Shown: in pieces, positions 1-50,515 of the stretch
Numbering within the stretch: position 1 is the stretch's first letter
How the letters are laid out: every line of letters begins with the position of its first letter
Origin: Pagrus major
Lineage: Eukaryota > Chordata > Actinopteri > Spariformes > Sparidae
Assembly (NCBI RefSeq): GCF_040436345.1
Contig: NC_133224.1
Span: 13,601,703-13,665,702 of the forward strand
Direction of reading: 5' to 3'
Length of the DNA: 64,000 nt
The notes under the pieces: model-generated
Told to the model about the DNA's origin: nothing
Databases searched by the model: none
What the model saw: only the letters and a program-made list of their open reading frames with translations
Program-made: the position numbers and the translations under genes

Positions 1-2476
1 CACTTGTAGTTTTCACTGTTGTTTCTACAGGTGACCTACAATGTTCAAAGACCAGCAGCACAGTCAGTTATCCAGCTGATGAGAGTCAAGACTGCACCTG
101 GCCACATTTACATTTGGTTGGCCCCCAACGAGTTTCTCACTCAGAGGTGTTCCTCATGAATACATTTCTGATGCTCACAGTATCTGTTGCAAACAAAGTG
201 TAATGCAGGAGAGCCAGAGATGTGTATGTGTGTGTGCTGGCACTGGATGTGATGGAGTGCGTGGCAGACACACCGTGGGATTAAATGCCTCTGTGTGTAT
301 ACAATTAGGGCTCTGCAACATGATCCTGCATCCATCCACCTACAACCCCCCCACCCAGTTTCTATATGGGCCCACAGCCAGCAGAGATGCCTTTAACACT
401 GACCTCTTATTTAGCACACATTCTAGCATCAACAGTGCTAAGCCTGTTTTCAGCCCTGCAAACAGGCCGGCAAGTTGTCAGTGCTGAATGATTTTCCAGA
501 AGATGGAAGCCACAAATGAAGGTTGGTCTCAGGTGTTTCTTGGTCAACTGAGGCTGAAAACAACAGATTCTAAGACAACGTGGACCAGGACAGATTGGAC
601 ATTATCATATATTGAGAAACTGGCCTGGTGGCAAGCTGTCATCACTGCAGCAGCAGCTTACTTGTAAATCCATGTACAGTAGGCGTTGTCTCACCTGTGA
701 ACAGAGGTTCCCATAGAACCAGATATGTGTTGAAAATATCTAAAGCTAGTTTACGGCTAACGCACAGTCAAGTAATGTGGCTGTTTGGGGTGAATAAACA
801 TACATGGGCATGAATTTGCTCCACTGGCTCAGGCCCAAACCTTCATGGATGACGTAATGTTTGAAATATTTGTTCAGGTTACGTTGAGTCTCACTGGCCA
901 TCAGTTTTCCTCACTCTCTCCCAAAAGTTACAGCGACAGGCGACCAAATGAAACACACCATCACCTTCAGAAGACTTGTGGATTTCTCTGGTTTGATGGA
1001 AATATTTGGGATAATAGACAAGTACACAACTCAACAAAATATATAACAAGAGATGTCTTCAGTTAGTTACTCCAAAAAGCTGTTTCATCTCCAGTGTAGA
1101 AGGAGACAATCTGTATGCTAAGCTAACCTAAACACTCTAAACACTGTATGTAATAGACATGAGATTGATATGAACTGACTCATCTAAGGAAGAGACAAAC
1201 ATATTCAAAAAATGTTGAACTATTTTAAGTGTTTGAAATAATCATGAGAGCTTTTCTAAGAACCAAATCTGACGTGAAAGTATTCTTGACAAGATTTATT
1301 TCCTGTACATCACAGGTTCATACAGAGCCGACCAAAACTGGATCCCATACCTGGAAGAACTCACCTGGAGCTGTGTGGCTGCTTGTCTTCAGATGGGCCA
1401 CACACTGAAAAGGTTCAAGGATTGAGGGACTAAACAGTAAATGTAAAGAGAACCAGACAGTTCAAATCTCTGTTGTCTTTGTATGTGTTTTTTAACCAAA
1501 CGTGTGTGGTTTTACTTTAAAAACGGTACTTATATCTCAGAAAGGACATGAAATTCAAAGCAGTGTTTTTGTAAAGCCTGGAGTGGAAGTAGAACATGAA
1601 AGAGTGAAAGTAACAAAGGCTTCCATGTTGTATTCAGAAGAATTTTATTTACAGTAAGCTCCATGTTCCTGTGCTTCATTCTGTAGGTCATGTCACACCA
1701 ACAAGTAGAAAACATTTAGAGACGTCTGCAAAAGAATTTCACATTTATTACATTTTCAAAATGCACAAACACATTTAAAATCAGCATGTGATGAAACATC
1801 TCATGTGGAGCCAACGCTGTACAGTTCACTTGCAAAGACTCCAAAGTTAAAAACCTAAACTAGGGCAGCGTCTGAGCATTAATTTCTGTTTGGACAAAAT
1901 GTTCAATGTTTCATTTCTCTCTCTCATCTGTACCCACCTGTCCCTGCTGTGCATTCACCGTTTCATTCCATATAAAAGTCCCTTTATAACTTTCTCACTT
2001 TTTCTCTTCAAGACAAATCTACCTTCTTCTACCTTCATACAATTTCAGCTTGTCCTGGAAGTTCACAGCAGGTGAGGGTCAGGCTTCAAACCCTCAGCCT
2101 GTTGACGTGTCCTTTGGCTCTGAATCAGTCCCACATTCACTCATTGATGCATAAGAACATCAGGCCTTCCTTCAGACCTGTGGAAAAGATATTTACACTT
2201 ATACAGAATTATTTATTTAAACAACAAGCTGTACTTTAAAAAAAAAGACAGTTATTCTCCATGCACCTTCACAAACTGCTGCAATGTGACTGGCAAAGTG
2301 TCACAATCTGAGATAATGGAGGAGCTGTCTGAGTTAATGATTGTTCAAAGAACTTTGCTTCTTCAGTCACACCTACTATTAAAATGTGATTAAAGGACCA
2401 TTAGATTGGAAAACTACAGAGCCTGTCAGGGGTCACGTGGTAGGACATGGTAGGACAGGACGTGGTCACTGTGCTC

Positions 2477-2770
2477 ACAGAGCACCAGGGAAACTAACTG
2501 ATGAACTGTGCAAACAGACAGAATTTGTCTGGCAGAACATGCTCTCTCTACGGCCAGTCTTTGGTTTGTCTGTTCTGGGCTACTGTAGAAACACAGCAGG
2601 CAACATGGTGGACTTTGTAGAGACAGACTGTCTCCCTCTGAAGATGTAAAAGACTCATTCTGAGTTAGAGAAAACACTACGATTCTTAGTTTCAGGTGAT
2701 TATGTACCAATGAAAACAAATGTATGATTATTACATTCCATTTCTGCTGATAGATCTCTATAAAAGTACA
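2477..2770. repeat. Interspersed repeat, MITE/SINE-like, in copy 1
   Basis: The stretch around a GGGCTACTGTAGAAACA motif, followed by the region ending near 'gatagatctctataaa', resembles from memory a very common perciform repeat that usually ends in 'tacacactggacctttaa'. Short ORFs on both strands here show no protein family. A consensus search would settle the family. Confidence 0.45.
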
Positions 2771-3584
2771 ATTTGTAATTTCATCTGCTGGAGGGCCCCG
2801 ACCAAAGAGAGTACAGAAAAGTGAGGGGAGAAGAAAAGAGTGAACCAGAGTCTCTGCTGATTCAAACTGACCCTTAAACTGAGAGTTTGCTGATCATAAC
2901 ATGCTGATAAAGTGCAATCAGAGCAGTGATGGAGCAGCACTTCAACCTAAAACAGCAACCACAGCGTAGCATTTTCTATATTACAACATGTCAACCGCTC
3001 AGAAGGCAGAAATTGATTTTTACCATTGAAAACTAAAACAACAACACAACCTGCATGATATTTAGATATAATACAGTACAATACCTGAATACAAGAACAC
3101 ATATTAATAATACTTTAATTCACTATAGTTTGGGGTTTTGTTTTTTACAAATGTAGGATTCTTTTGTAAGATTCTATGATAATGATAATGAATGATAACA
3201 TTCTAGTCTCCTCGCATAAAGAAAAGTAAAAACACATTTCCAAAAGTTGATTCAAAATGAAAGAAGGATGGACTGGCCAGCAGATCCACAGTCTGTGAAC
3301 TGTTTTAAGTACAAAACAATAAGTCAATGTCAGAATAATTACTTTGAACAGTGATATACAGAAATACATCAGGCTGCAGGTCACACAGCTGAGTTATCCC
3401 AGAGGTCCCTCTTTGTCCTTCCTGCTACAGCAGGTAGCGTGTAATGCTTTGACAGCTGCCTGGAAGCTAAAATCACATTCTTTATATTCCAGGGAGAAGG
3501 GAGAAGACCATTTTACATTTTTGTGAGAATAGTGAATAAACTGTATCTCAACATGAACTGCCTTCAGGTGGTTATTACAGGAAA

Positions 3585-3795
3585 ATGCAAAAGATTTGTA
3601 GGCAACAGGTCATGTTGAAAAATGAAGTGAATATTCTGTCATATATGCAGGACAAGTGCCTGAAGAGAGACCTCCAGGATGTCTACCATTGTATACATTC
3701 AACACACTACATTCAAAATTGTTATCAAAGTGACTCGAGGCAAATAGTGATTTGTGATTCTGGGCTATATAAATAAAACTGACTTGACTTGACCA
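3585..3795 (+). repeat. LINE (L2/CR1-like) 3' tail remnant, copy 1
   Basis: The stretch ends in 'gggctatataaataaaac' followed by the short tandem 'tgact' words typical of the 3' end of fish L2/Maui-type LINEs (recalled, not searched). No reverse transcriptase coding sequence is visible upstream. Confidence 0.4.
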
Positions 3796-5779
3796 TTATG
3801 TTAATGAATACATACAATGATATTTCCAGGCACATTAAAGATGGTGGTAAATGCTTTTACAGAAGCTCTGAGAGGCAAGTAGGAACAAATATGGTGATCC
3901 ATTTTCAAAGTGATCTCATTTTGTTCTTCTGACCCAAGGACAGGTGAATAAAAGGTTTGATCAGGATAATCTTTCCATTTTCCTTAATTATTTTATTTCA
4001 TCTATGAAACAGGTGAAAATAAATGTTTGCCAGGATCATTTTTCTAAGTTACTTTTTTTCATCTGTGACGTATGTCTCACATCTACTTTTCTTATGTATA
4101 GTCACCAGAGATAGCACCAATTAAAATAAATTTCAGTATTGTTTTATAACTCACTAACACAATATATGAACCTTGTGTTTCAAGTGCACTGAGGCTCAGA
4201 ACATTAATGCTTTCAGCTCTGTTTATAGCATGTGGTGCTGAAATGAGTATTGCAAAAACAAACACTTACAAAAATGATCCTGACAAAAAAATACAAATAT
4301 TTCATCAGTTAAAACTCTTTTGTCCCTCATTTTTAACAGATGAAAAAAAATTAAGGAATGTAGAAAGATTATCCTGGTAAAACCTTTTTTCACCTGTCCA
4401 CCACAGTACAGATTAGATTTTTTTTTCTCCTCACTTAGAGCTTCCATTTGACTTTTGTGCATTTTAAAGCAAAAGATGTGACACTGCATAAAATCCACCA
4501 GAAGTGATGGTGAGGAAATGTTAAGCTGTGTAGATATTTGCCTAAATACAGTCATCAAATATATTATTCAATAATGTGTTGTAATATGAAATAAAGAGGA
4601 GATCAATTACTGCAATAGTAAAGTCAATGCAATATAGATCTACAAGTTAACAAATGAAGTGACTCTTTCACATTTTTACAATGTGATGTTATAAAACAAG
4701 GCAAGAACTACACACTTCACTATAAACATCTTTTACAAGTTAAAAAAAAGGTGAAACAGGAAGTGGATGAGCCCTCTGATACAAGAGCCCTGATCCATCA
4801 CCTCCAGCCAATAACATAACACGATGAAGAGACCAAAACCCAGAGCAGTCCAACATCCACACAGGGTTCAGTCCTGTTGGGAACCAAGAAGAAACAGACA
4901 CTAAATTATTATGAACACACCATAAACAACTAAAACCCAAAAAATATAATTCACCAGATTTACTTTAAACAGAGTAAACTGTGTTTCTGCGTACCAAGAA
5001 ACCTTGTGTTCTGAGTTCATACAGTATACAGTGCAGAGACCTCTGATCAACTGCTTCACTTCTTTGACTCATTTCCAAGAAGATCCTGAGACAACTAGAC
5101 TAGATGAGAGTCCTGTGGAGGTTTTTCAATGAGAGAAATATTCAGCGAACATTTAAGCATTATTCACTCTGCAATCTGAGATTCAAAAATGATAGCTGGA
5201 CTGAGCTCATGTGTGTCCGACACACAGGTTCTGTCTGGCATCAGACTGATAAAAGTAGAACGGTACAATACTTCACAGTGCTGTGCTGGTTTGGAGACGT
5301 TTCTCCTGCACACACAGAAACATCATGCTGCTTTGTACTCTTTTCACATAAGATGGAACTTTATTAATGCTGAAGGATATTGTGTCAGAGATCGCTACAA
5401 TATTTTTATTACAGATTGCACATCTTTAAAATGCTAAAAGCCACGAGGTCTTTACTACCTAGTATCTGTATCTGTACATATTTGATTAACACAGTGTGTT
5501 GCTGGATAACTTTGGATTGCACTGCAGCAATGAGAGGGAGCAAAGAGCACTTTATTTGCCTGACTACCACACATACTTGCTTTACAGAGCGTGCTCCAGC
5601 AGGAAGCTTGTGTGTTTCACTCCAGTGTTATTGTTTGTTAGTCATGACTGCTGTTGACAGATGTCAGGTATTTAGCTGTGGCTAAAGCTGCCATGACTTA
5701 TATAAAAAATGCAACCAGCAATGAATTCTGTCTTCATCTGATCTGTAATTACACATTGACATAAATCAAAATCAAAAGC

Positions 5780-6068
5780 CCGAGTCCAGTTAACACTTTA
5801 TTATGACATCATTAATGAGTTACAGTTAGTTAAACTTTAGTCAATAGTTATTTCACTGTCGTAAAGGTTTATAAACAACAGTGTTAACTTCATAATGACC
5901 ATCTGAATAATGCTTTAAGACAAACTAACAGTATTTATGAAACATTTACAAAGTATGATGAACATCAGTTGTAACTTTACAATAAACAGTTGTTTAATAA
6001 ATGGTTTATAAAACATTTCATTGTTTGTTAACATTAAAAGTTATAGTTATTATAAATAGTTACCCAAG
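5780..6068. repeat. AT-rich interspersed repeat upstream of the TRIM 3' end, copy 1
   Basis: AT-rich block beginning with an 'aacactttattatgacat' motif and ending at 'tataaatagttaccc'. It resembles from memory a common teleost element built of words such as 'agttaaactttagt' and 'ttataaacatt'. Nothing coding is seen from 5700 to 6768. Confidence 0.4.
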
Positions 6069-6768
6069 TCCAATTTAAATGTTCATTTTCAACATTAGGT
6101 AGCACTTTGTCTGCCAGTTTAAAAATGAATGGTCGATTTCATATTCACTGTTTTTGTAAGTTACATTTTATTCTAATTGATTTGGCTGTATAAACACAAC
6201 AATCCAAGTGTGTAATCAAAGTGTATAAAACACTTCAAAACATTTATAGGCCATAGAGCATTATATATACAATTTCATCTAATTATACATTTCACAGGAT
6301 TACACTTGAGTACATTGGAAATTATCTACCAGTTGATTTTATTTATTATTCACTGTTTTACACGTGATACATTTTTAAATCTGTAAAATAAATTGAAATT
6401 AAAAAAATTGGGGATTGTTGAATTTTAGTCTAAATGTGTTCACATGAGGCTTCCTACAAAAAGCAAACTCAAATAAAAAACAGAAAATTAATGTTCTTTA
6501 CTCATCTCAATATAATCTTTATATGATGCCACAAAACCTGTCATGCATTCTCTATTGACTAGCAAAGCTCCAGTTCATAACAACATAGAAAAATTTTGTT
6601 CCAATAACACGTATAGAAACACACATATCTGTTAATGTGTAGCACAGTGGACATACTGTGAATATAGTGATTCAATCAAATAAGTAGCAAAGAAAGCGGA
6701 AATAGGCATCTCACTATCATAATCATCATCATCATCGAGATAACCATGACCTTCATTAACATAATCAT

Positions 6769-8175
6769 CTACATCTCTAACTTTGCAGTGACTTTCACAG
6801 GTAATATCCTCACTGGCTTGGTACTTAGTGTGTTAATGTATGGAAACAGCCTCTCAGAAAAAGTCTGTGAGAAGGTGTGTATGTGTGTGTTAGTATCCAG
6901 GTCAGAGAAGGACAGCTTTCCTCTGTTCCAGTCCAGATGCACTCTGATCCTCCTGATCGGGTTCTTCACTGAGAGAACTTGGTATGTATGTGGTGGAGAG
7001 TACGCTCTGTATTTACCATTGTCAAACCAGATTTCCCAGTATCCAGTCAGAAGCTCTCCCTTCCTCTCAATAGACTCTGCTGCCACACCCACTGCCCAGT
7101 TTGCATCAGTTGTAACTTCAACATCCCAGCTGTGAGTCCCTGAGTTAAAGCCCTCAGATCCCAGGACCGTGGGGTAGTATTTAAATCTTTCTGGGTTTTG
7201 CGGAAGCTCTCTCTCGCTCTGTCTGCAGGCCATACTTTTCAGATCGTCAGAAACAACGAGGTAGGGACCTGCTGTGTTTGGATCCAGAATCATGGGAGAA
7301 TACGTAACCATCTCCTTCATCTTGTTCCAGATGTTGTAGGTTAGGTTGCCCAGGTGTTTTGCCACATCTATGAGTGCTCCTAGGCCCAGCTGTGGATCAG
7401 CCAGCAGGGGGCACTGCTGGACTCTTTTCACTGCAGCCTTGTAATTCTGCAGGAATGAGACACTTGCACCATTCAGCTCCTTCTCTGTGGCTCTGATTGT
7501 GTCTGTGAGAGCTGCGATCTCTCTGCTCAGAGCCTGAATCTTCTGCCCCATCACCCTGATCTTCTGCTCCTCTTCCTCCTTCAGTGCAGTGATCCTAGCC
7601 TCCTCTTCTTTTTCTAAAAAATACTTGAGCTTCTTAAATTCTTCCCTAATCTGCATCTTTGTGTCCTGTGCCTGACCCAGGATGATTGCCTCTGTTAGTT
7701 CCCAGTGAACCTTAACTTGATTTAGGTTCTCCACTCTCTCTTGTAACGGCTTCAGGGATTTCCTGAGCTCCTCCTTGTAATCCTGTGCTGCTTCATCGAT
7801 GGGTCTGAATCTGTGCTTGATGTGTGTTTTTGAATCTCGACAGATAACACACACTGGCTGCTGATGGTCCAGACAGAAGAGCTTTAGTGTCTCTGAGTGC
7901 AGACTGCAGAAAGCCTCACATCTTGCAGAAGCAAGAGAAAGATCTTGTACAAAGGCTTCACACAGGTCCTTTAAAGCCAAGTTTCGGGGTGGGTCACTTT
8001 TTGAAGATCGTCTTTTACAAACTGGACACTCGCGAATCAGTTTCTCTGCCCACCAGTTCCCCAGACAGACTTTACAAAAGCTGTGGCTACATGACAGCAA
8101 AACCGGATCTTTGAAGATGTCTTGACAGATTGGACAAGAATAATTCAACTCTGACCTGGACAGCCGAGCAGCCAT
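6769..8175 (-). CDS. TRIM35-like E3 ubiquitin ligase (RING, B-box, coiled coil, PRY-SPRY), intact
   Basis: This is an intronless 468-codon gene. The RING finger uses C14, C17, C29, H31, C34, C37, C50 and C53, the C3HC4 pattern that recruits ubiquitin-conjugating enzymes. B-box 2 follows at residues 90-121 (C90, H93, C101, H104, C109, C112, H118, H121). A charged coiled coil rich in E and K runs roughly 125-260 and should mediate the antiparallel dimer. A PRY-SPRY domain fills about 275-468, with PRY 'LDPNTAGPYL' and SPRY words 'SWDVEV' and 'VHLDWNRGKLSF'. The domain order and text resemble the fish TRIM35-like/zinc-binding protein A33-like class. Such proteins are cytosolic E3 ligases whose SPRY domain reads the target, often in innate immunity; the target here is unknown. 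The start is the first Met before the RING, with a TATA box about 78 bp upstream. The only other copy in the window is frameshifted. Confidence 0.93.
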   Translation of the reverse strand: MAARLSRSELNYSCPICQDIFKDPVLLSCSHSFCKVCLGNWWAEKLIRECPVCKRRSSKSDPPRNLALKDLCEAFVQDLSLASARCEAFCSLHSETLKLFCLDHQQPVCVICRDSKTHIKHRFRPIDEAAQDYKEELRKSLKPLQERVENLNQVKVHWELTEAIILGQAQDTKMQIREEFKKLKYFLEKEEEARITALKEEEEQKIRVMGQKIQALSREIAALTDTIRATEKELNGASVSFLQNYKAAVKRVQQCPLLADPQLGLGALIDVAKHLGNLTYNIWNKMKEMVTYSPMILDPNTAGPYLVVSDDLKSMACRQSERELPQNPERFKYYPTVLGSEGFNSGTHSWDVEVTTDANWAVGVAAESIERKGELLTGYWEIWFDNGKYRAYSPPHTYQVLSVKNPIRRIRVHLDWNRGKLSFSDLDTNTHIHTFSQTFSERLFPYINTLSTKPVRILPVKVTAKLEM

Positions 8176-8252
8176 TTCTGAGTGAGCCTGAGAAGACAGT
8201 ACGACGACACTTGCTTTTGGCCTTGGTTTGGAGTCGTCTCTCTTCTAAAAGA

Positions 8253-8260
8253 CTTTTATA
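8253..8260 (-). promoter_or_regulatory. TATA box of the intact TRIM gene
   Basis: The minus strand reads TATAAAAG here, 78 bp upstream of the TRIM ATG. The spacing suits a transcription start about 30 bp downstream and a short 5' UTR. It is conserved in copy 3. Confidence 0.6.
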
Positions 8261-8383
8261 ACCAGTGGAAGTAGCAGTATTCCAGTATTCCCAGAATTCC
8301 CAGTATCCCCTTTCTTCTGTCCTCTCTGTCAGTGGAAGCTGTGTGTTTTGTATCCTGTAATCTGTCTCTCTGTGTGTCTCTGT

Positions 8384-8435
8384 CAGCAACTAACTGTGCT
8401 TCCTGGTTTATACCAGGAAGCACAGTTAGTTGCTG
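8384..8435. repeat. Palindrome at the left/right module junction
   Basis: Two perfect 24-bp inverted arms (8384-8407 and 8412-8435) flank a 4-base loop (TTAT). The arm includes AACTGTGCTTCCTGG. The outer right flank (TTTTTTCTCTCTAAGGACAGAG) has its inverted partner preserved only in copy 3 (31161-31180), so the ancestral arms were longer, about 45 bp. It lies about 210 bp upstream of the TRIM start. Confidence 0.9.
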
Positions 8436-8460
8436 TTTTTTCTCTCTAAGGACAGAGAGA

Positions 8461-8474
8461 ACTGTTGCAACAGT
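8461..8474. repeat. Short perfect palindrome ACTGTTGCAACAGT
   Basis: A self-complementary 14-mer just beyond the larger palindrome, kept in copy 2 near 18420. It could be part of a transposon terminus; no function can be shown. Confidence 0.5.
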
Positions 8475-8479
8475 AAGCA

Positions 8480-8965
8480 TTTATTGATATATCCACGGAC
8501 GTAATTTGGGGGGGGGGGGGGGGAGACACAGGGGGGAGACACAGGGGACATGTCCCCTGCACTTTTTCAAAAGGTCGTTTTGGTCCCCTGCAGTTTTAAT
8601 CGTCCAAAAACAATGTTACGCTATAGTAAACACAGACTGGTCAAGCACTAGGACCAAGCGGAAAACGGCCGCTCAAGCTGCAGCCTGTTCCCCTTAGTTT
8701 AGACCGCCCACAAGCTCCTCGATTGGCTCTGCCGTTTCTTGTGTGATTGGCCGTCCCCGCTGTCACTCCATCTTGCTTGCACACCGGTCTGCTAGTTGCC
8801 CAGGAGTCCTTATTAATCTGCCACGGTAAATTTGGCGTTTGTTCTGCCTGGGTCACGTCAGCTAGAAGGATTGTAATATCAGAGGTTTCATTTACATTAA
8901 CTTTTGAATCGGTGTCCATGCGCGTGCGTGCGTGTGTGTGTGTATGTGTGTTTGGTAATTAGGCG
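8480..8965. mobile_element. Poly-G-led block resembling a DNA-transposon terminus, copy 1
   Basis: A run of G's follows 'cacggacgtaatttgg', then two 'gacacaggggg' direct repeats, then a CpG-rich block with two inverted CCAAT motifs (ATTGG at 8722 and 8746), and finally a CG/TG dinucleotide stretch. I recall a similar start in teleost hAT-type (ZMYM1-like) transposons, but no transposase frame is present. The G run length differs between copies. Confidence 0.35.
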
Positions 8966-9271
8966 CAGCTGTAGAGCCTCAACAATGCAAAGATTTTAAA
9001 AAAGCTTATATTTAATGCCAAAGAGATGCACTTATTTTCATGTATTATTTTTATGTTGAAAGGCAACAACTGATTTAAAAAAACACCAACAATGAAAGAT
9101 TTAGGGAAAAATACAATAAAACCTCGGATTACAAATGTGATTTTATACATCCAGACTCATGATAATTGTCAAACTAAGTTTTTTCCTCTATAACCGTATC
9201 ATCAAAATTGATGATTGTTGCACCCCAAATTGTCCCATTGTTCATGTCATGCATCAATATATTTTTGTCAG

Positions 9272-9499
9272 GTGACGGATGATAGAGATGCAGAAGGAGA
9301 TACAGGAGGAGAGGCTGGAGGAGATGGAGGAGAAGAGGCTGGAGGAGGGAGAGGAGGAGAAGCTGGAGGAGATGTAGGAGGAGAAGAGGCTGGAGGAGGG
9401 AGAGGAGGAGAAGCTGGAGGAGATATAGGAGGGGAGGCTGGAGGAGGGAGAGGAGGAGAAGCTGGAGGAGATATAGGAGGAGAGGCTGGAGGCTCACAG
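9272..9499 (+). repeat. GA-rich minisatellite between splice-like borders, copy 1
   Basis: Degenerate 24- and 27-bp units of the GGAGGAGA type encode Gly/Glu-rich text in one frame (GGDVGGEEAGGGRGGEA), Glu-rich coiled-coil-like text in another (RLEEMEEK) and Leu-rich text on the other strand. The block starts right after 'atttttgtcag' and ends right before 'gtgaggt', so it has the form of a 228-bp exon. No flanking coding exons could be recognised, so this may be a relic of a transposon or gene exon. Confidence 0.6.
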
Positions 9500-11142
9500 G
9501 TGAGGTTGAAAGAATAAACATATGTTAGTCATGGGTTGATGCCTTGGGCAGGAAGAAACTCTGCTAGGAATTTATTTCTGCCAATGATCGAAGACAACAT
9601 GTGTTTGGAAGCTTTGGATGAGTTGATTATGTTGACCCTTCTGTGGTCTTTGGGTCAAATTGACCCTTTTTCACTTTTCATTTACATCAAAAATAGGATT
9701 TTCTTCCTGCCTAAAGATGACAGTGGTTCTCTGTTACACTTATTTCAAATAAAATTGATTACTTGACTACTTGCACTGAATTATGGACATTTTATTAAAT
9801 TTCTCCCCACCTGTGATATTCCTATAATATTGTCAGTGAGATTAAATGTCTAAACCTCACACATGAGGTGCTGTGTGAAGCTGAAATGATGAAAATATAC
9901 ATGACTTGAATTATGTTCAGTAGCCTGAGTTATTTCTAACACAAGTGGAATATAGCTCAGAAAATACACAACACCACAGTGTAGATATACTCTGTACAAT
10001 CAATGCATTTCATTTTTACTAATGTAAAAGTACTAGCATCAAAATATACTTTAAATATCAAAAGTAAAAGTACTCTTTATGCAGAATGGCATATTTCAGA
10101 ACAAATCTACATTGATGCATTGATGTGTGATCACTTTGGAATAACAACTTTATCTAATTAATCTGCAGGGTAACCTGTGAATTTCTCCTCAGGGATAAAT
10201 ACATTTTGATCTTAATCTACAATATTACAGCATCATTGATTTGTTGATCACAAGCTGTCAAATAAAGGTAGTTCAGTAAAAAGTCAGTAATCTGCCTCTG
10301 AACTGTGGAGGAGTAGAAGTATAAAGTAGCAGTAAATACACATATTCAAGTACCTCAAATGTGTACTTCACTACTGTACTTGAGTAAATGTACTTACTGT
10401 AGCTTTCACTGAACCACTGATATCTAATCCCAGTTTGTCCTGCTGAGAGTCTGAAAGCTAAATCTTACACTCCTACAGAGACCTTTAGAAAGGGACATCT
10501 GCACCAGACTCCATTCAACAATATGCCAATTTTAAATTCTCTGACTGATTGCTTACAAACCTGCAAACCTCCTACTGCACCATGACTGAGCCTTAATGAA
10601 TAAATGAAACAGTGAGTCATCAGCACCACAGGCACTTTCACCTTTTCTGGAAAAGAAGTGTCCTTTTGCAGTCCTTTACAGCTCTCTGCTGATGATCTGC
10701 TGATGAGTGTCTGTGTAGGTCAGGACAAGATCAAATCACGTTTTAAAATAAAGTATAAATTAAAGCTTTTCAATTTTCAAAAAAAAAGGTTTTTACAACA
10801 CAAATATCCCAAATATTTAGAATAAAAGAAAACAAGCTGATTTTTTTCATCAATCAGACCAAAGAAGCAGCTTTTGGTTTCCTTATTCAATCATGGTCAC
10901 ATCACCCTCAGTCCCATTAGATTCATTAACACTAATGGAAAATATTGCCAATATTAGCAATAACTGCTAGCTTAAGTCTAATGTTGAAATACATGAGAAA
11001 CAACAGGGTTTGACAGATTTATAAATCTCACTGTTTTCTGGACTAAAGTCCTCTTGTCAGTGACAGAAGGTGTGAAGAAGGTTCAGGTGTAATAAGTCTC
11101 CAGTAAATCCTTTTTTCGTGGAAAAAGTGAACTTTTCTGAAA

Positions 11143-11394
11143 ATGTCGGACCGTAGGAAGGCTCGGTTCTGTCTCAGTGTTGATCCGGACCGAATGATGC
11201 ACCTGGAGACAAACCATGGCAACCGTGGAACGTTCAGGTTCCCCTGCCCAGCAGCCCACAGCTCACCTGGAGAACATAGATCCCACCAGAATGGTGAAGT
11301 CCCGACAAAGGAGGCCAGAGATCAGGCCGATATGAACCTATGGAGAACTTCACATAAAGAAACATGTCAGGTGTCCGATAAGAGGCCCTTATAA
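11143..11394 (+). other. Small open reading frame of unknown status, copy 1
   Basis: An 83-codon ORF starting MSDRRKARFCLSVDPDRMMH. It sits in a stretch with more CpG than its AT-rich surroundings and contains a donor-like site (CAG|GTGTCC) at 11369. No domain is recognised. The copy 2 version differs by three amino acid changes (R to Q, H to N, T to S) and no silent change, which argues against purifying selection. It could be a first exon or chance. Confidence 0.2.
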
Positions 11395-12169
11395 CGCTTA
11401 TAACGTGATGACGCATCCCCAGGCCTACAGACGTTAGAACATGAGCTGGACATGTTGGACTTTCTAGCCTTTCATTTATAATATTTATGCATACAAACAA
11501 TATTCATATATTTAATAAGTCATATTATTATTTCTGGGCGGCTCCTCTCCTGCTGAACTTTTTCTGTGTGTTCATTCTTGCACATTATATCGCTACTATA
11601 GCGCCATCAGGTGGGCTCAACAGAGAACTGCATGTTAATGACTAGTTGGGCTGCGGTTCAGTTTAAGTGGAACAAGCCAGAGAGCAAACATTACTGCAGC
11701 CTGTACCATACACATCATTTATTATTGTTCTCTATCTACTACGGGTCTGTTATATTGAAGTTCATGTGAGGCTTTGGGCCCCTGGCTGACCTTACTGTCG
11801 GCCCCCCACCCACCCAGCACACCCCAACAATCAGCTGATTGCTGCTGAAGAAGCAGATCCTGAGGACACTCAGGTGAAGGATTAGGGACAGAGGTATAAA
11901 TGAACCTTTACTCTGTGTCAATACTATGATTGGATACTATGAAATGAAAAGAATACTATGAAAAGAATTTCCTCTTGCGGGATCACAATAGTAAATTAAA
12001 TTAAATAAAAAAATGATTATATGAACAAATATGCTGAATATTTGTTATGGTTTCATATAGTGGGGATGTGTTTATTTACGCATGATGAATATGTGAGGCT
12101 TTTACCTGCTGCAACAGGAAACGTGCCACTTGACAATAAATGGAGCTTCAAAAAAGCTGAATATTTTGA

Positions 12170-12560
12170 AAAGTCACCCAGCCTCCAGCACCTCTGCAAC
12201 CTGCCTGCACTCTACTGTGGATCCTCTGTGTTATATCCTCCTGAGCCTCCACTTCTACCTCAGCCCACACCACTGTGAGTCTCCACCTTCTCTTACCTAC
12301 CCAGCCACCAGCGTTTCCACCTGCCAGAGCCCGAGTCTCTCCACGCCAGCCCAGCCACCTGCTGTGCCACCTGCCTGAGCCCGAGCCAGAGCATCTTCCA
12401 CTACCTGCCTACTCAGCTTCAACAATAAATTCATTTAACTATCTCCCTGCTTGGTGTCAGCTTTTGGGACCCTTCTGTACTTCATATCGCTGCTGTAGCT
12501 GCTGAAAAGACAGAGATCTCCTAACTTCATTATCTCCTTGTCTACCCAAGCCTCAAACCC
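12170..12560 (+). mobile_element. LTR-like retroelement tail, copy 1
   Basis: A C-rich region (CCTGCCTGCACTCTACTGTG, then repeated 'ccagcccagccacc') is followed by AATAAATTCATTTAAC and 'ctccctgcttggtgtc'. This is the arrangement of R-U5 in fish Ty3/gypsy LTRs as I remember them. No gag-pol lies beside it, so it would be a solo-LTR fragment. Proline-rich ORFs here are a by-product of composition. Confidence 0.35.
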
Positions 12561-15439
12561 TGGTTCTGGCAGCCAGGCAGAAAGTCCTCTATGGTACGGA
12601 TGAGCCTCCAGGCCTTAACATCACTTAAAGTGGTAGGGTTAGTACAAAGGTCCGTCACCGACTCACTTATTCACTAATAAATTCCACAAAGGCCATTTGG
12701 ACTGAGAGGATTACACGTTTCTTATGTTACCAGTCACTGTTGTTTGTACAGGTGACCTACAATGTTCAAAGACCAGCAGCACAGTCAGTTATCCAGCTGA
12801 TGAGAGTCAAGACTGCACCTGGCCACATTTACATTTAGTTGGCCCCCAACGGGTTTCTCACTCAGAGGTGTTCCTCATGAATACATTTCTGATGCTCACA
12901 GTATCTGTTGCAAACAAAGTGTAATGCAGGAGAGCCAGAGACGTGTATGTGTGTGTGCTGGCACTGGATGTGATGGAGTGCATGGCAGACACACTGTGGG
13001 ATTAAATGCCTCTGTGTGTATACAATTAGGGCTCTGCAACATGATCCTGCATCCATCCACCTACAACCCCCCCACCCAGTTTCTATATGGGCCCACAGCC
13101 AGCAGAGATGCCTTTAACACTGACCTCTTATTTAGCACACATTCTAGTATCAACAGTGCTAAGCCTGTTTTCAGCCCTGCAAACAGGCCGGCAAGTTGTC
13201 AGTGCTGAATGATTTTCCAGAAGATGGAAGCCACAAATGAAGGTTGGTCTCAGGTGTTTCTTGGTCAACTGAGGCTGAAAACAACAGATTCTAAGACAAC
13301 GTGGACCAGGACAGATTGGACATTATCATATATTGAGAAACTGGCCTGGTGGCAAGCTGTCATCACTGCAGCAGCAGCTTACTTGTAAATCCATGTACAG
13401 TAGGCGTTGTCTCAGCTGTGAACAGAGGTTCCCATAGAACCAGATATGTGTTGAAAATATCTAAAGCTAGTTTACGGCTAACGCACAGTCAAGTAATGTG
13501 GCTGTTTGGGGTGAATAAACATAAATGGGCATGAATTTACTCCGCTGGCTCAGGCCCAAACCTTCATGGATGACGTAATGTTTGAAATATTTGTTCAGGT
13601 TACGTTGAGTCTCACTGGCCATCAGTTTTCCTCACTCTCTCCCAAAAGATACAGCGACAGGCGACCAAATGAAACACACCATCACCTTCAGAAGACTTGT
13701 GGATTTCTCTGGTTTGATGGAAACATTTGGGATAATACACAAGTACACAACTCAACAAAATATATAACAAGAGATGTCTTCAGTTAGTTACTCCACAAAG
13801 CTGTTTCATCTCCAGTGTAGAAGGAGACAATCTGTATGCTAAGCTAACCTAAACACTCTAAACACTGTATGTAATAGACATGAGATTGATATGAACTGAC
13901 TCATCTAACTCTCAGGAAGAGACAAACAGACGTATTCAAAGAATTGTTGAACTATTTTAAAGTGTTTGAAATAATCATGAGAGCTTTTCTAAGAACCAAA
14001 TCTGACGTGAAAGTATTCTCGACAACTTTATTTCCTGTACATCACAGGTTCATACAGAGCCGACCAAAACTGGATCCCATACCTGGAAGAACTCACCTGG
14101 AGCTGTGTGGCTGCTTGTCTTCTGGGCCACACACTGAAAAGGTTCAAGGATTGAGGGACTAAACAGTAAATGTAAAGAGAACCAGACAGTTCAAACCTCC
14201 GTTGTCTTTGTATGTGTTTTTTATCCAAACGTGTGTGGTTTTACTTAAAGTAACAAAGGCTTCCATGTTGTATTCAGAAGAATTTTATTTACAGTAAGCT
14301 CCATGTTCCTGTGCTTCGTTCTGTAGGTCATGTCACACCAACAAGTAGAAAACATTTAGAGTCGTCTGCAAAAGAATTTCACATTTATTACATTTTCAAA
14401 ATGCACAAACACATTTAAAATCAGCACGTGATGAAACATCTCATGTGGAGCCAACGCTGTACAGTTCACTTGCAAAGACTCCAAAGTTAAAAACCTAAAC
14501 TAGGGCAGCGTCTGAGCATTAATTTGTGTTTGGACAAAATGTTCAATGTTTCATTTCTCTCTCTCATCTGTACCCACCTGTCCCTGCTGTGCATTCACCG
14601 TTTCATTCCATATAAAAGTCCCTTTATAACTTTCTCACTTTTTCTCTTCAAGACAAATCTACCTTCTTCTACCTTCATACAATTTCAGCTTGTCCTGGAA
14701 GTTCATAGCAGGTGAGGGTCAGGCTTCAAACCCTCAGCCTGTTGACGTGTCCTTTGGCTCTGAATCAGTCCCACATTCACTCATTGATGCATAAGAACAT
14801 CAGGCCTTCCTTCAGACCTGTGGAAAAGATATTTACACTTATACAGAATTATTTATTTAAACAACAAGCTGTACTTTAAAAAAAAAGACAGTTATTCTCC
14901 ATGCACGTTCACAAACTGCTGCAACGTGACTGGCAAAGTGTCACAATCTGAGATAATGGAGGAGCTGCCTGAGTTAATGATTGTTCAAAGAACTTCACTT
15001 CTTCAGTCACACCTACTATTAAAATGTGATTAAAGGACCATTGGTTCTGGAAGACTACCATATCACATTGAATTGGTAAATATATTCTTAAAGTGCCAGC
15101 AAATATGTGGATGCTATTTTTGTCTGTATTGCACATCCCAGTTATACACAACAGACAGACAATTTGGGATTTGATTGGTATGTTTAAAGGGTCCATTCAC
15201 CCAAATCAGAAAAAACATATTTCCTCTTAATTAGTCTTCTCTGGTCATACAGCCAGTTTTGGTTTTATGTTTCTGGGTGTTGAGATATCTATCTCTGAGG
15301 TTTATGCCTCCTGTCCAAATACCATGAAGGTTGAATTTTATTTGTTCTGCTCGCAGGATGAAAACTGAGGTTTAAAAAACTACAGAGCCTGTCAGGGGTC
15401 ACGTGGTAGGAGAACATATTGGCATAAAATCTGTGCTCA

Positions 15440-16763: not shown

Positions 16764-18440
16764 CTTTATGTTAATGAATACATACAATGATATTTCCAGG
16801 CACATTAAAGATGGTGGTAAATGCTTTTACAGAAGCTCTGAGAGGCAAGTAGGAACAAATATGGTGATCCATTTTCAAAGTGATCTCATTTTCTTCTTCT
16901 GACTCAGGGACAGGTGAATAAAAGGTTTGATCAGGATAATCTTTCCATTTTCTTTAATTATTTTATTTCATCTATGAAACAGGTGAAAATAAATGTTTGC
17001 CAGGATCATTTTTCTAAGTTACTTTTTTCATCTGTGAAAATGTTGTTTTTCATCAGATGGGGATTTTGTTGTAATACTCAAATCAACCACATACGTCATA
17101 CTGGTTTCTATATCTATGAGTAAATGTGGAAACTGTACATGTCCACGTATGTCTCACATCTACTTTTCTTATGTATAGTCACCAGAGATAGCACCAATTA
17201 AAATACATTTCAGTATTGTTTTATAACTCACTAACACACAATATATGAACCTTGTGTTTCAAGTGCACTGAGGCTCAGAACATTAATGCTTTCAGCTCTG
17301 TTTATAGCATGCAGCGCTGAAATGAGTATTGCAAAAACAAACACTTACAAAAATGATCCTGACAAAAAAAATACAAATATTTCACCTGCTAAAACTCATT
17401 TTGTCCCTCATTTTTAACAGATGAAAACAAATTAAGGAATGTAGAAAGATTATCCTGGCAAAAGCTTTTTTCACCTGTTCACCATAGTACAGATTAGATT
17501 TTTTTCTCCTCACTTGCCTCTCAGAGCTTCCATTTGACTTTTGTACATTTTAAAGCAAAAGATGTGACACTGCATAAAATCCACCAGAAGTGATGGTGAG
17601 GAAATGTTAAGCTGTGTAGATATTTGCCTAAATACAGTCATCAAATCTATTATTCATTAATGTGTTGTAAAATGAAATAAAAGTACAAAATCAAAAGTTA
17701 TGTAATCTGATGTTAAGTTAAAAAATAAAGAGTTTTGAGACTTTAACCCTCATCAGTTTAGGGGGAGATCAATTACTGCGATAGTAAAGTCAATGCAATA
17801 TAGATCTACAAGTTAACAAATGAAGTGACTCTTTCACATTTTTACAATGTGATGTTATAAAACAAGGCAAGAACTACACACTTCACTATAAACATATTTT
17901 ACAAGTGGATGAGCCCTCTGATACAACAGCCCTGATCCATCACCTCCAGCCAATAACATAACACGATGAAGAGACCAAAACCCAGAGCAGTCCAACATCC
18001 ACACAGGGTTCAGTCCTGTTGGGAACCAAGAAGAAACAGACACTAAATTATTATGAACACACCATAAACAACTAAAACCCAAATTATGATTCACCAGATT
18101 TACTTTAAACAGAGTGAGCTGTGTTTCTGCGTACCAAGAAACCTTGTGTTCTGAGTTCATACAGTATACAGTGCAGAGACCTTTGATCAACTGCTTCACT
18201 TCTTTGACTCATTTCCAAGAAGATCCTGAGACAACTAGACTAGATGAGAGTCCTGTGGAGGTTCTTCAATGAGAGAAATATTCAGCGAACATTTAAGCAT
18301 TATTCACTCTGCAATCTGAGATTCAAAAATGATAGCTGGACTGAGCTCATGTGTGGGCTTCCTGGTTTATACCAGGAAGCACAGTTAGTTGCTGTTTTTT
18401 CTCTCTAAGGACAGAGAGAACTGTTGCAACAGTAAGCATT

Positions 18441-18926
18441 TATTGATATATCCACGGACGTAATTTGGGGGGGGGGGGGGGGGGGGACACAGGGGGGAGA
18501 CACAGGGGACATGTCCCCTGCACTTTTTCAAAAGGCCGTTTTGGTCCCCTGCAGTTTTAATCGTCCAAAAACAATGTTACGCTATATTAAACAGAGACTC
18601 GACAAGCACTAGGACCAAGCGGAAAACGGCCGCTCAAGCTGCAGCCTGTTCCCCTTAGTTTAGACCGCCCACAAGCTCCTCGATTGGCTCTGCCGTTTCT
18701 TGTGTGATTGGCCGTCCCCGCTGTCACTCCATCTTGCTTGCACAGCGGTCTGCTAGTTGCCCAGGAGTCCTTATTAATCTGCCACGGTAAATTTGGCGTT
18801 TGTTCTGCCTGGGTCACGTCAGCTAGAAGGATTGTAATATCAGAGGTTTCATTTACATTAACTTTTGAATCGGTGTCCATGCGCGTGCGTGCGTGTGTGT
18901 GTGTATGTGTGTTTGGTAATTAGGCG
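18441..18926. mobile_element. Poly-G-led block, copy 2
   Basis: Paralogue of 8480-8965 with a longer G run. The inverted CCAAT motifs and CpG-rich block are retained. Confidence 0.35.
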
Positions 18927-19233: not shown

Positions 19234-19785
19234 GTGACGGATGATAGAGATGCAGAAGGAGATACAGGAGGAGAGGCTGGAGGAGATGGAGGAGAAGAGG
19301 CTGGAAGAGGTAGAGGAGGAGAGGCTGGAGGAGATGGAGGAGAAGAGGCTGGAAGAGGTAGAGGAGGAGAGGCTGGAGGAGATGGAGGAGAAGAGGCTGG
19401 AAGAGGTAGAGGAGGAGAAGCTGGAGGAGGTAGAGGAGGAGAAGCTGGAGGAGATGTAGGAGGAGAAGAGGCTGGAGGAGGGAGAGGAGGAGAAGCTGGA
19501 GGAGATGTAGGAGGAGAAGAGGCTGGAGGAGGGAGAGGAGGAGAAGCTGGAGGAGATGTAGAAGGAGAAGAGGCTGGAGGAGGGAGAGGAGGAGAAGCTG
19601 GAGGAGATGTAGGAGGAGAAGAGGCTGGAGGAGGGAGAGGAGGAGAAGCTGGAGGAGATGTAGGAGGAGAAGAGGCTGGAGGAGGGAGAGGAGGAGAAGC
19701 TGGAGGAGATATAGGAGGGGAGGCTGGAGGAGGGAGAGGAGGAGAAGCTGGAGGAGATATAGGAGGGGAGGCTGGAGGCTCACAG
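19234..19785 (+). repeat. GA-rich minisatellite, expanded, copy 2
   Basis: Same borders as 9272-9499 but 552 bp long, an expansion of 324 bp (108 codons, in frame). The Gly/Glu frame reads three GGDGGEEAGRGRGGEA units, one short unit, five GGDVGGEEAGGGRGGEA-type units and two GGDIGGEA-type units, so unit types are clustered as in unequal exchange. Confidence 0.7.
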
Positions 19786-27911: not shown

Positions 27912-27966
27912 GCAGAGTGAATAATGCTTAAATATTCAGCGAACATTTAAGCATTATTCACTCTGC
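27912..27966. repeat. Copy-3-specific perfect hairpin (22-bp arms)
   Basis: Arms 27912-27933 and 27945-27966 are perfectly inverted, with loop ATTCAGCGAAC. Copies 1 (about 5112-5175) and 2 have the right arm, but their left side reads 'aggtttttcaatgagag'. Copy 3 has exactly 17 bases replaced by an inverted copy of the right arm. Confidence 0.95.
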
Positions 27967-29559: not shown

Positions 29560-30956
29560 CTACATCTCTAACTTTGCAGTGACTTTCACAGGTAATATCC
29601 TCAGTGGTTTGGTACTTAGTGTGTTAATGTATGGAAACAGCCTCTCAGAAAAAGTCTGTGAGAAGGTGTGTATGTGTGTGTTAGTATCCAGGTCAGAGAA
29701 GGACAGCTTTCCTCTGTTCCAGTCCAGATGCACTCTGATCCTCCTGATCGGGTTCTTCACTGAGAGAACTTTGTCTGTATGTGGTGGAGAGTACGCTCTG
29801 TATTTACCATTGTCAAACCAGATTTCCCAGTATCCAGTCAGAAGCTCTCCCTTCCTCTCAGTAGACTCTGCTGCCACACCCACTGCCCAGTTTGCATCAG
29901 TAACTTCAACATCCCAGCTGTGAGTCCCTGAGTTAAAGCCCTCAGATCCCAGGACCGTGGGGTAGTATTTAAATCTTTCTGGATTTTGCGGAAGCCCTCG
30001 CTCACTCTCTCTGTAGGCCGTACTTTTTAGATCATCAGAAACAACGAGGTAGGGACCTGCTGTGTTTGGATCCAGAATCATGGGAGAATACGTAACCATC
30101 TCCTTCATCTTGTTCCAGATGTTGTAGGTTAGGTTGCCCAGGTGTTTTGCCACATCTATGAGTGCTCCTAGGCCCAGCTGTGGATCAGCCAGCAGGGAGC
30201 GCTGCTGGACTCTTTTCACTGCAGCCTTGTAATTCTGCAGGAATGAGACACTTGCACCATTCAGCTCCTTCTCTGTGGCTCTGATTGTGTCTGTGAGAGC
30301 TGCGATCTCTCTGCTCAGAGCCTGAATCTTCTGCCCCATCACCCTGATCTTCTGCTCCTCTTCCTCCTTCAGTGCAGTGATCCTAGCCTCCTCTTCTTTT
30401 TCTAAAAAATCCTTAAGCTTCTTAAATTCTTTCCTAATCTGCATCTTTGTGTCCTGTGCCTGACCCAGGATGATTGCCTCTGTTAGTTCCCAGTTAACCT
30501 TAACTTGATTTAGGTTCTCCACTTTTTCTTGTAATGGCTTCAGGGATTTCCTGAGCTCCTCCTTGTAATCCTGTGCTGCTTCATCGATGGGTCTGAATCT
30601 GTGCTTGATGTGTGTTTTTGAATCTCGACAGACAACACACACTGGCTGCTGATGGTCCAGACAGAAGAGCTTTAGTGTCTCTGAGTGCAGACTGCAGAGA
30701 GCCTTGCAGAAGCAAGAGAAAGATCTTGTACGAAGGCTTCACACAGGTCCTTTAAGGCCAAGTTTCGGGGTGGGTCACTTTTTGAAGATCGTCTTTTACA
30801 AACTGGACACTCGCGAATCAGTTTCTCTGCCCACCAGTTCCCCAGACAAACTTTACAGAAGCTGTGGCTACATGACAGCAAAACAGGATCTTTGAAGATG
30901 TCTTGACAGATTGGACAAGAATAATTCAACTCTGACCTGGACAGCCGAGCAGCCAT
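29560..30956 (-). pseudogene. TRIM35-like gene, frameshifted copy
   Basis: Paralogue of the intact gene at 6769-8175. The first frame (30672-30956) encodes the full RING finger and then runs into a stop after 94 codons. A net 7-bp deletion around 30697-30705 removes the Cys-Glu-Ala-Phe stretch at the B-box entrance and shifts the frame. The rest of the B-box, the coiled coil and PRY-SPRY continue open in another frame down to 29560, where the stop lies. A second, in-frame loss of one codon occurs in the SPRY domain (VEVTDANW against VEVTTDANW). The long downstream frame is still open, so the lesion is recent. It could be a true pseudogene, an allele, an assembly error or a source of a RING-only protein. 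Confidence 0.85.
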
Positions 30957-31041: not shown

Positions 31042-31160
31042 ACCAGTGGAAGTAGCAGTATTCCAGTATTCCCAGTATTCCCAGTATCCCCTTTCTTCTG
31101 TCCTCTCTGTCAGTGGAAGCTGTGTGTTTTGTATCCTGTAATCTGTCTCTCTGTGTGTCT

Positions 31161-31226
31161 CTGTCCTTAGAGAGAAACAACAGCAACTAACTGTGCTTCC
31201 TGGTATAAACCAGGAAGCATTTATTG
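31161..31226. repeat. Partial palindrome and end of duplication copy 3
   Basis: The outer left arm (CCTTAGAGAGAAACAACAGC), missing from copy 1, is kept here. The right arm is cut down, leaving 10-bp arms (31195-31204 and 31209-31218). The loss joins 'ggaagc' to 'atttattg'. In copy 1 that word is preceded by 'taagc', giving a shared AAGC at the join. Similarity to copy 1 ends about eight bases later. Confidence 0.85.
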
Positions 31227-35830: not shown

Positions 35831-38800
35831 TCATCTGTGCTCCACCACAAAGCTCATGGTGGTCCCGTCAAACGAGGGTGGGGCGATGATCCGGGGCCCT
35901 TGCTGGGAGGTGATACTGACGACCGGCTGCTTGATGCTGGAGAAGCCCTGCGGCGGCCTGCTGGCGGTGGCCTGCTGTTGAGCCCCAGAGGTCGCCTGGG
36001 GAGACTTCCCAGTGGCCATGTAGAAGGGACTCTCCATGTACATCCCCTCATTCTGCTGCACTGAGGCTTTCTCCACATTCTCCATCTCTGACTGCATCGA
36101 CATCTGCGACTGCACCAGCGTCCGGGCTGGGATCATAGATGGTGTTGGCATGAAGCCTGGGTAGATCATGTAGGTGTGTCCATAAGCTCCTGGACTGAGC
36201 GCCAAAGGTGAGACTGGCATGGGCACTGGGGTCATAGGCGGTTGCTGCATGGGCACGTCCACATACTGGCCTGTCTCAGGGTCAAAGAGGCGCTTGGTGG
36301 TCGGCTGCACAGGAGTGTCCACCAGATAGTAGTTTCCGGTGGTGGGATCCAGGAGCATCTTCCTCTGGGTGGTCTGGAAGGGGTCCATTGTGGGTGTGGG
36401 GGTGATTGCTGGAGAGAAACAGTACATCTGAGGCTGATTGGTGGCCATGCTGAATGGCATGGAGTGGTAGATGGTAGCAGAAGGGATCTCTGGGGAGTGT
36501 GTCCCCATCACAATGCTGGAGCGTTTAGGGGACTGGTTGTGGTCGTCCTGTCCCCTGGAGCTGGATCCCAAGTGTCCTGAAGGTGTGGTTGGATGTGTCT
36601 GGGTTGTAAATGTGGACACTGATGATTTATCAGCAGATGAGGCTTGCTTGTTGCCGCTGGCGTGAGACTTGACCGGAATGGTCAGGTAGTTCTCGTTGTC
36701 AGCCAAGGTGCTCAAGAGCTCCTGCATGGACCTCTCTGACTCCTTTGATTCATCTCCTTCATGTCCACTTACCCTCGGCTGGCTGACTTTTAAGGATGCA
36801 GGCAGTTTTGGAGACTTTGGGACAAAGCATTTGTTGCTGAAAGGTGTTGGTGTGACAGCGCTTGGCTGGGGTGTCTTTGGGGTTGTGGAGGCCTTGAAGC
36901 TAGAACTGAGGCTGAACAGGTTTTTACTCCCTGTGGCGCTGGTGGTTTGCAGCGGCTTAGTAACTAGCCTTTCATCACGGCTGCTAGGACTCTGAAAGAG
37001 TTTGTCCTCTCGCCTCAGCAGGCTGTCAGTGGCGGGGGATGCTGCAACCGCTGGTGGCGTCTTGGCCACGTTGGACCCTCTCGCTGCTTCCTCCTCAGGT
37101 CCTCCATGCTCGGCACTGGATATCAATGAAAGCACATGGCTGTCTGTCAGGCGCCGGGGCTCATTCTTCCTTTTCCATTCATTTCTCTCAAAGACATAGA
37201 GCTGCTCCATGGTTTTCACAGCAGCCTGGAGTTTTTCCAAAGCCGCCTGGTTCGCCATCTTGGATTCAGGTTTCTTCTCTATGATGTCTGTTATTTTTTC
37301 CTGCCTCTTTGGAGCTATTCTGCTTTCAGTTTTCAATCCAGTGTCTCCCTCTGAAGAATTATCTGAGGTACCTATGGGTGCTCTCCCTGCTGCCTTTTGC
37401 AGTAGAGCACTTTTAGCGCCCTCTGGAGACGACCTGTCTATATCAAGTAGCTCCCGATCAGACAACTCATTAAGTTTTCCGTTACTATTTGTATTGACAG
37501 ACTGACATTTTATCACTATAGGGGACACAGAATTAGGGTTGCGATAGGTCATTTGCTTCCTCTGTTCTGCCTGGCTGTCAGCAGAGGCAAAGCTGGATTT
37601 ATTTTCGTTGTTATCCAAAGAAACAAAGTGATAGGAACTTTTCACCAATTTACGCACGTCTCTCACTTGGTGTATGGGCGTCTGCAGCTTTCCTTTGTTA
37701 TCTCTAATGTCTCTGACCATGAAGTGCGGAACCTTATCTGAAGACTCACCCTTGAAAGCTGCAGCCAGCGCCTGGCATTTGAAGTCATCTGCTCTGATGA
37801 GGCTGGCTGCGTTACAGCCTATATTAGGCGCGCGCAGTTTGGAGACGCCAAAAGGCTCCGTTTTATTGTTTCTGACGCTCCTTAAGTTAATTTTAATTTC
37901 CGGAGATTTCGATGTAGCCACACTCCTGGTGTCTTGGATGTATAAAGTGTTGTCGGAGCGGAGTTTAATCCCTCCTCCGTCTCCACACGGAGAATAATTC
38001 CTGTTCTGCAGCTGCTGTCCGACTTCTCCGTCACTGGGCAGCAGTTGGATACTTGGCACAAACAAATGTGACATTTTAGTCAGTTTGCCGCTGCACGATG
38101 AGTACTGATCCCTCTCGCCCTCTTTGACGTTAACTGAAGGCGGCTTCTCCTGCGGAGTTTGATCGTTTTTATGATCCTTTTGAAACTCTAGCTCCTCGTC
38201 CTTCCAGCATCTGAACGCGCTATTTTGGCTGCGAAGCAGCGTGCTTTTGGACGCTTCCAATGCGCCTTTTTTAGCATCGATTCCAGCTTCATTCGCTTGC
38301 TCCAAATTAGTTTCTGGTGCGGGAGCGGCCGTCTCTTGTCTCCGAGAGTCGCTCTTGGTATCACATGAGCCACTGTCCACGATGTCCCCTAATTCATCCA
38401 CGCACATTATGGTGTAGTCAGAGCTGCTCTCAGAAAACCTGGAGCCCTGTCTGTGCAGCTCCCTGCTCCCCTTCCCCCTGTGGCTGTCGCTCTCCTGGTG
38501 CACAAAGCACGGGGAAGGCGTCTGATGCGGCTCACTGATCTCCCCTCTTTCCATCTTGCGCTCCTGCTCGAACTGCATCTTCTTAGAAATCACATTTTTG
38601 AGCAGACTCGAGGCGAATATGGCTTTCTTGTGTGTGTCTTCCATGGTTTTAGTGGGCGGCTGGCTGGCCCCTCTCCTCTGGCTGCTTGGCAAAGTGTTGG
38701 TAACTTCATCTGTGGAACGTGATCCTGCTGCGTTTTGTGCAAAGTTAGTGCGTCTTTCTGCCTCAGACATTCCCGATTTGACATTGCAACGAAAATTCAA

Positions 38801-49700: not shown

Positions 49701-49727
49701 GTTCTTGGAAACAACAGGACAACCATA

Positions 49728-49856
49728 CTTACATACATACATACATACTTACATACATACTTACATACATACATACATACATACATACTTACATACATAC
49801 ATACATACATACTTACATACATACATACTTACATACATACATACATACTTACATAC

Positions 49857-49887
<31 letters not shown>

Positions 49888-49900
49888 CTTACATACATAC

Positions 49901-49931
<31 letters not shown>

Positions 49932-49988
49932 CATACATACTTACATACATACTTACATACATACATACATACATACTTACATACATAC

Positions 49989-50019
<31 letters not shown>

Positions 50020-50036
50020 CATACTTACATACATAC

Positions 50037-50067
<31 letters not shown>

Positions 50068-50068
50068 C

Positions 50069-50099
<31 letters not shown>

Positions 50100-50515
50100 C
50101 TTACATACATACATACATACATACATACTTACATACATACATACATACATACATACTTACATACATACTTACATACATACATATATACATACATACATAC
50201 ATACATACATACTTACATACTTACATACTTACATACATACATATATATACATACATACATACATACTTACATACTTACATACTTACATACATACATATAT
50301 ACATACATACATATACATACATACATATATACATACATACATACATACATACATATACATACATACATACATACTTACATACTTACATACTTACATACAT
50401 ACATATATACATACATACATATACATACATACATATATACATACATACATACATACATACATATACATACATACATACATACTTACATACTTACATACTT
50501 ACATACATACATATA

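Follow-up and report, generated by a model that had tools for sequence, protein, structure and literature searches.

The array and its TRIM gene

The window, meaning the whole 64-kb stretch of DNA that was analyzed, resembles fish DNA in its gene content. It contains an array of three tandem copies of one unit, which spans from near the window start to position 31226, with a spacing of ~12.7 kb between copies 1 and 2 and of 10.2 kb between copies 2 and 3. All comparisons described below are between these three copies in a single assembly. With gaps excluded, the identity over positions 13–5215 of copy 1 is 97.8% between copies 1 and 2, 96.2% between copies 1 and 3, and 97.1% between copies 2 and 3. 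Over positions 5216–8383, copies 1 and 3 are 98.2% identical, and copies 1 and 2 share 99.2% identity at 8398–9285 and 98.2% at 9493–12690, figures that exclude the minisatellite located between 9285 and 9493. This minisatellite is built of 48–51-bp units and differs in length between the copies, occupying 9304–9492 in copy 1 (~4 repeats) and 19259–19778 in copy 2 (~10 repeats).

Copy 1 carries a TRIM gene on the minus strand (6772–8175; start codon at 8175), an open frame without interruption in which the RING, B-box, PRY, and SPRY domains all exceed the Pfam cut-offs. The frame lies entirely within 5216–8397, the stretch absent from copy 2, in which a 3.2-kb deletion has removed the whole TRIM gene. 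Compared with copy 1, the corresponding TRIM sequence in copy 3 (29563–30956) has a frame-breaking gap of 7 nt, which falls at copy 1 position 7915, in the interval between the RING and the B-box.

Elsewhere in the window, a long open frame on the minus strand (35834–40516) encodes a DUF4585 domain and is presumably C4orf54-like. A 1-kb tetranucleotide array of the CATA type (49724–50737) contains several long open frames that are probably meaningless, and an inverted repeat of ~170 bp, with arms 92% alike and ~300 nt apart, is found at 63244–63413 and 63719–63889. A search of the window against Rfam returned no family that reached the gathering threshold, and no paper on this locus appears among the literature matches listed.

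The main palindrome in the three copies

A palindrome scan of the 64-kb window (score of at least 12, loop of at most 10) found two palindromes, scoring 24 and 22; six simulated Markov-1 windows of the same size contained none scoring at least 12, the best reaching 11. The higher-scoring one, hereafter the main palindrome, occupies 8384–8435 in copy 1 and is the palindrome with 24-bp arms claimed in the earlier note. It is real: the arms (8384–8407 and 8412–8435) are perfect, separated by a 4-nt loop, TTAT, and located upstream of the minus-strand TRIM gene of copy 1, 209 bp from its start codon. As a single strand, it folds into a hairpin of −34.6 kcal/mol, 10.8 standard deviations lower than shuffled sequences (mean −8.9, sd 2.4, n = 200). 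The arms have a G+C content of 50% by hand count and are hence not AT-rich. Exact scans of viral contigs and of bacterial and archaeal genomes for the palindrome core returned zero stretches, as expected given that the DNA appears to be vertebrate.

The arms start with CAG and end with CTG, as do several transposon ends, raising the idea that what remains here is part of a transposon of the fold-back or MITE-like type. We regard this origin as extremely improbable: no target-site duplication is visible by eye beside the arms, and outside the array copies the arm matches in the 64-kb window are at most 17 nt long.

Copy 3 differs from copy 1 at this site in several ways at once. When the two are aligned in the ordinary way, the left arm of copy 3 carries an insertion of 16 nt, its loop shows two changes, and its outer right arm is missing. 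The earlier note described the right arm of copy 3 as lost, which holds for the outer 13 bp, while the inner 11 bp are kept; it did not mention that the loop is reversed, from TTAT in copy 1 to ATAA in copy 3. All of these differences are captured when positions 31158–31219 of copy 3 (plus strand) are read as the reverse complement of positions 8397–8458 of copy 1, with one mismatch and the loop flipped, and the copy 1 stretch up to a 5-nt repeat is skipped. In a four-point fit from copy 1 to copy 3, the sequence follows copy 1 up to 8376–8384, continues as the reverse complement of the source tract within 8397–8458 (54–62 nt, read on the minus strand), and rejoins copy 1 from 8475–8480 to 8486. 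This fit has one mismatch over 116 nt, with microhomologies of 8 and 5 nt and 54 equivalent placements. The putative switch-out zone (8376–8384, plus strand) shares the 8-nt inverted microhomology with 8450–8458, so that placements across the zone are equivalent, and the 5-nt microhomology, AAGCA, lies at 8475–8479, where the copy 1 sequence would be re-entered. When the direction was reversed, with copy 1 to be derived from copy 3, the search gave no four-point fit at this site.

The event that would turn the copy 1 state into that of copy 3 is a short-range template switch at the time of replication, in which 54–62 nt would have been copied inverted and the stretch up to the AAGCA repeat of 5 nt then skipped. 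We scored this history in bits, using indel rates after Walker et al., a divergence of 0.02, and switch-point priors of our own. Under these settings, the ordinary alignment scores −82.2 and the template switch −47.0 (rate 1e-4) or −53.7 (rate 1e-6), which places the switch 28–35 bits above the ordinary alignment of copies 1 and 3. A bare count of events, with insertions uncharged, gives two events at either site and would argue against the need for template switching; we dropped it because an inserted stretch of whatever content then costs a single event, whereas the bit scores charge the inserted bases.

The earlier note had proposed a different history, in which the ancestral palindrome had arms near 45 bp that were trimmed by deletion, on the left in copy 1 and on the right in copy 3. 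Spelled out, this history starts from 47-bp arms, of which copy 1 would have lost 16 nt and copy 3 a stretch of 57 nt, and it must also flip the loop between the two copies. In its favor, the left arm of copy 3 and the right arm of copy 1 are complementary over ~47 bp with one mismatch, and under this history the 57-nt stretch lost from copy 3 sits between two AAGCA repeats. Such long ancestral arms are not required, however, because one switch accounts at once for the left arm with its ‘extra’ sequence, for the missing right arm, and for the reversal of the loop. When computed from event lengths, the score of the long-ancestor history is −43.5 if the loop flip is free, −53.4 if the flip is charged at 1e-3, and −57.9 if it is replaced by two loop substitutions; i.e., it ranges from 3.5 bits above the switch at its higher rate to 4–11 bits below the switch. 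The two sets of scores overlap, and the long ancestor fares better, equally well, or worse depending on the assumed rates and the cost of the flip. It also posits an unobserved ancestor and three events in place of one, and its deletions leave the reversal of the loop unexplained. On balance, we consider trimming from a long ancestor possible but somewhat unlikely.

A further history reaches the same end product as the template switch by two events: the palindrome would have been inverted between the inverted repeats TCTCTGTC and GACAGAGA, through recombination or a nick in the hairpin and with no switch by the polymerase, and an independent deletion would then have joined the two AAGCA repeats. 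The placements slide by 8 nt and 5 nt, so that the inverted tract and the loss are each bordered by short repeats, as such a history would have it. With an identical product, this history is hard to tell from a switch by sequence alone; it invokes two events where one suffices, and we hold it to be very unlikely. The fit at the main palindrome suggests a single template switch as its simplest history, though an unproven one, and hence a mutation of a known kind, in which the copying machinery may have briefly switched strands. A single switch leaves the origin of the 24-bp palindrome of copy 1 itself unaccounted for.

Recognizing the inversion in copy 3 also moves the end of the unit. The earlier note had placed the palindrome exactly between the two modules of copy 1, which no longer holds once the inversion is taken into account: if the switch is correct, homology between copies 1 and 3 extends to 8486, and the unit boundary (8486/8487) lies 51 nt beyond the right-hand end of the main palindrome. 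The 12 nt of the plus strand that contain the re-entry point and the end of the unit (8475–8486) are common to all three copies, recurring at 18434–18445 and 31215–31226. Position 31226, given in the earlier note as the end of homology in copy 3, is indeed the last base in common with the copy 1 unit.

In copy 2, the site is altered in another way (18346–18392, plus strand). As the earlier note claimed, the 3.2-kb deletion ends within the left arm: homology stops at 5215 of copy 1 and 18355 of copy 2 and resumes at 8398 and 18357, respectively, leaving an inner stem of 10 bp at 18357–18380, compared with 11 bp in copy 3. The near-coincidence of the two stem ends is weak evidence, since the copy 3 junction slides by 5 nt. 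The copy 2 junction contains one or two added G residues and has TGTG on either side, features that point to end joining guided by minimal homology, if any. The deletion would be a separate event, joined by at most 4 nt of homology plus 1–2 G, and its end may have come to lie in the hairpin arm by chance or have been promoted there. We also considered a role for the second palindrome of the window in this deletion, which starts 43 nt past the equivalent site; copy 2, however, lacks that palindrome, and the idea was rejected.

A second palindrome in copy 3

The second palindrome (27912–27966) lies outside the stretch treated in the earlier note and is present in copy 3 only. It has 26-bp arms with one mismatch and a 3-nt loop, and the left arm repeats the right arm in reverse complement. 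At the equivalent site, copies 1 and 2 are identical to each other except for one base and carry other sequence where the left arm stands. Positions 5118–5139 of copy 1 (plus strand; the copy 2 equivalent starts at 18258) are replaced in copy 3 by the inverted sequence of 5151–5172, of equal length. A four-point switch that leaves copy 1 at 5117–5118, copies 5151–5172 inverted, and returns at 5140 accounts for this 22-nt in-place replacement with zero mismatches and scores 19–26 bits above ordinary alignment, while in reverse even the best fit leaves 14 mismatches. One arm has been replaced in place, giving a near-perfect palindrome, as in a putative conversion of a quasi-palindrome. The second palindrome is best read as the product of one template switch, and the process would thus be visible in the array itself.

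The site folds at −23.8 kcal/mol in copy 3 and at −2.7 kcal/mol in copies 1 and 2. Because copies 1 and 2 fold no better than shuffled sequences (1.3 and 1.4 sd less stable), the site had no strong pre-existing hairpin, a point that weighs against the switch reading. A small imperfect inverted repeat with 8-nt arms, one mismatch, and a 3-nt loop can be read in copy 1.

We also surveyed the aligned parts of the array for similar differences. In the left part of the unit (A-left), 24 ungapped polarised substitution clusters were scored, two of which had P < 0.05. Only the cluster at the second palindrome reached the length threshold, its 22-nt reverse-complement match being equaled in 0 of 200 randomised versions; the match of the other cluster fell below that threshold. 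None of the 16 clusters in the other blocks (9, 1, and 6) was flagged. Similarly, a novel inverted tract of at least 12 nt was held by just 5 of 1150 overlapping tiles, four at the second palindrome and one a 12-mer at 9700 that is probably due to chance. The tiles cover four aligned blocks, and the main palindrome, which lies outside them, was tested separately by the four-point fit. Both strong palindromes of the window coincide with template-switch-like differences between the copies.

Taken together, the alignments and fits favor, with a probability of roughly 0.64, a reading in which both sites arose by short-range template switches in replication and the copy 2 deletion was a separate event. 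A single switch is a simpler reading of the main palindrome than the two arm deletions from a large ancestor implied by linear alignment, and the array would then hold two well-marked candidate switches, one creating and one inverting a palindrome, within one young set of gene copies.

Breakpoints, strand logic, and known systems

Three of the 23 structural events listed for the array have an endpoint in 8360–8486, namely the deletion end, the switch, and the unit boundary. The corresponding clustering P is ~0.003 if this stretch is taken as named beforehand, a value to be read as partly post hoc, given that the unit boundary was brought in by widening the stretch, and 0.55 for any stretch that wide; for the two events inside 8384–8435, with the unit boundary excluded, P is 0.008. 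The list was compiled by hand, with gap runs in 993–1350 merged and other runs assigned by eye, and excludes indels shorter than 10 nt and two substitution clusters (copy 1 positions 2441 and 4422); owing to the manual compilation and approximate endpoints, all these P values are rough. Clustering at the main palindrome is nominal: the notion that it attracts rearrangements is compatible with these data, and the palindrome may act in this way. The broader suggestion of the earlier note, that the array may owe its diversification to the palindrome, is unsupported, as 20 of the 23 listed events have no endpoint there. As it appears here, the main palindrome is a place of local mutation rather than what drove the array.

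The order of the switch points constrains which strand could have served as the template. According to the parts of Walker et al. (2021, PMC7954356) drawn on here, the nascent strand is excluded as a template when point 2 lies ahead of point 1, and both orders, 1-4-3-2 and 1-3-2-4, are given there for events in primates. The event at the main palindrome (1-3-2-4) would require the opposite or sister strand, since its source lies ahead of the switch whichever way synthesis runs, and copying from such a template would also flip the loop. For the second event (1-4-3-2), the nascent strand may have folded back at the small imperfect inverted repeat, provided that synthesis ran from right to left. 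In the sections of their study used here, Abraham and Hazkani-Covo (2021, PMC8604942) explain inverted spacers by switching between molecules, and we infer that the flipped loop of the main palindrome and the unflipped loop of the second would agree with this origin.

A bolder extension, which we consider quite unlikely, is a palindrome cycle, whereby switching enlarges small hairpins and later switches or deletions invert, trim, and remove unit ends together with genes. If this cycle were true, tandem immune-gene arrays would bear rearrangement points of their own making. In more practical terms, comparing paralogues in tandem arrays offers a cheap view of template switching that needs no outgroup.

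The four-point model of short-range template switching was applied as in Walker et al. (2021, PMC7954356), with earlier work by Loytynoja and Goldman cited there. As in the cases described in the portions of that study consulted, one reverse-complement copy of neighboring sequence explains a cluster of mutations, the same point orders recur, and the tract lengths fall inside the published range. The inverted tract of 54–62 nt at the main palindrome is long compared with the great-ape median of 12 and below the great-ape maximum of 128 given in the same source. Unlike the between-species comparisons made there, ours is between tandem paralogues of one assembly, and direction is taken from the asymmetry of the fits, plus the agreement of two copies against one at the second palindrome, not from an outgroup.

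A second parallel is provided by yeast inverted repeats, for which, in the passages of Abraham and Hazkani-Covo (PMC8604942) relevant here, template switching yields spacer inversion and arm homogenisation. Along these lines, the 4-nt spacer of the main palindrome is inverted between copies, and at the second site a short imperfect inverted repeat became long and near-perfect. Unlike the yeast cases as presented in those passages, the event at the main palindrome also entails the loss of the outer part of one arm, and it lies outside any coding frame found. Finally, the main palindrome resembles the human fragile palindromes treated in the parts of PMC7999016 used for this comparison in its perfect arms, short spacer, and a deletion ending in an arm; it differs from them in size, with 52 bp in total and 24-bp arms against two cases of 160 and 180 bp, and in not being AT-rich.
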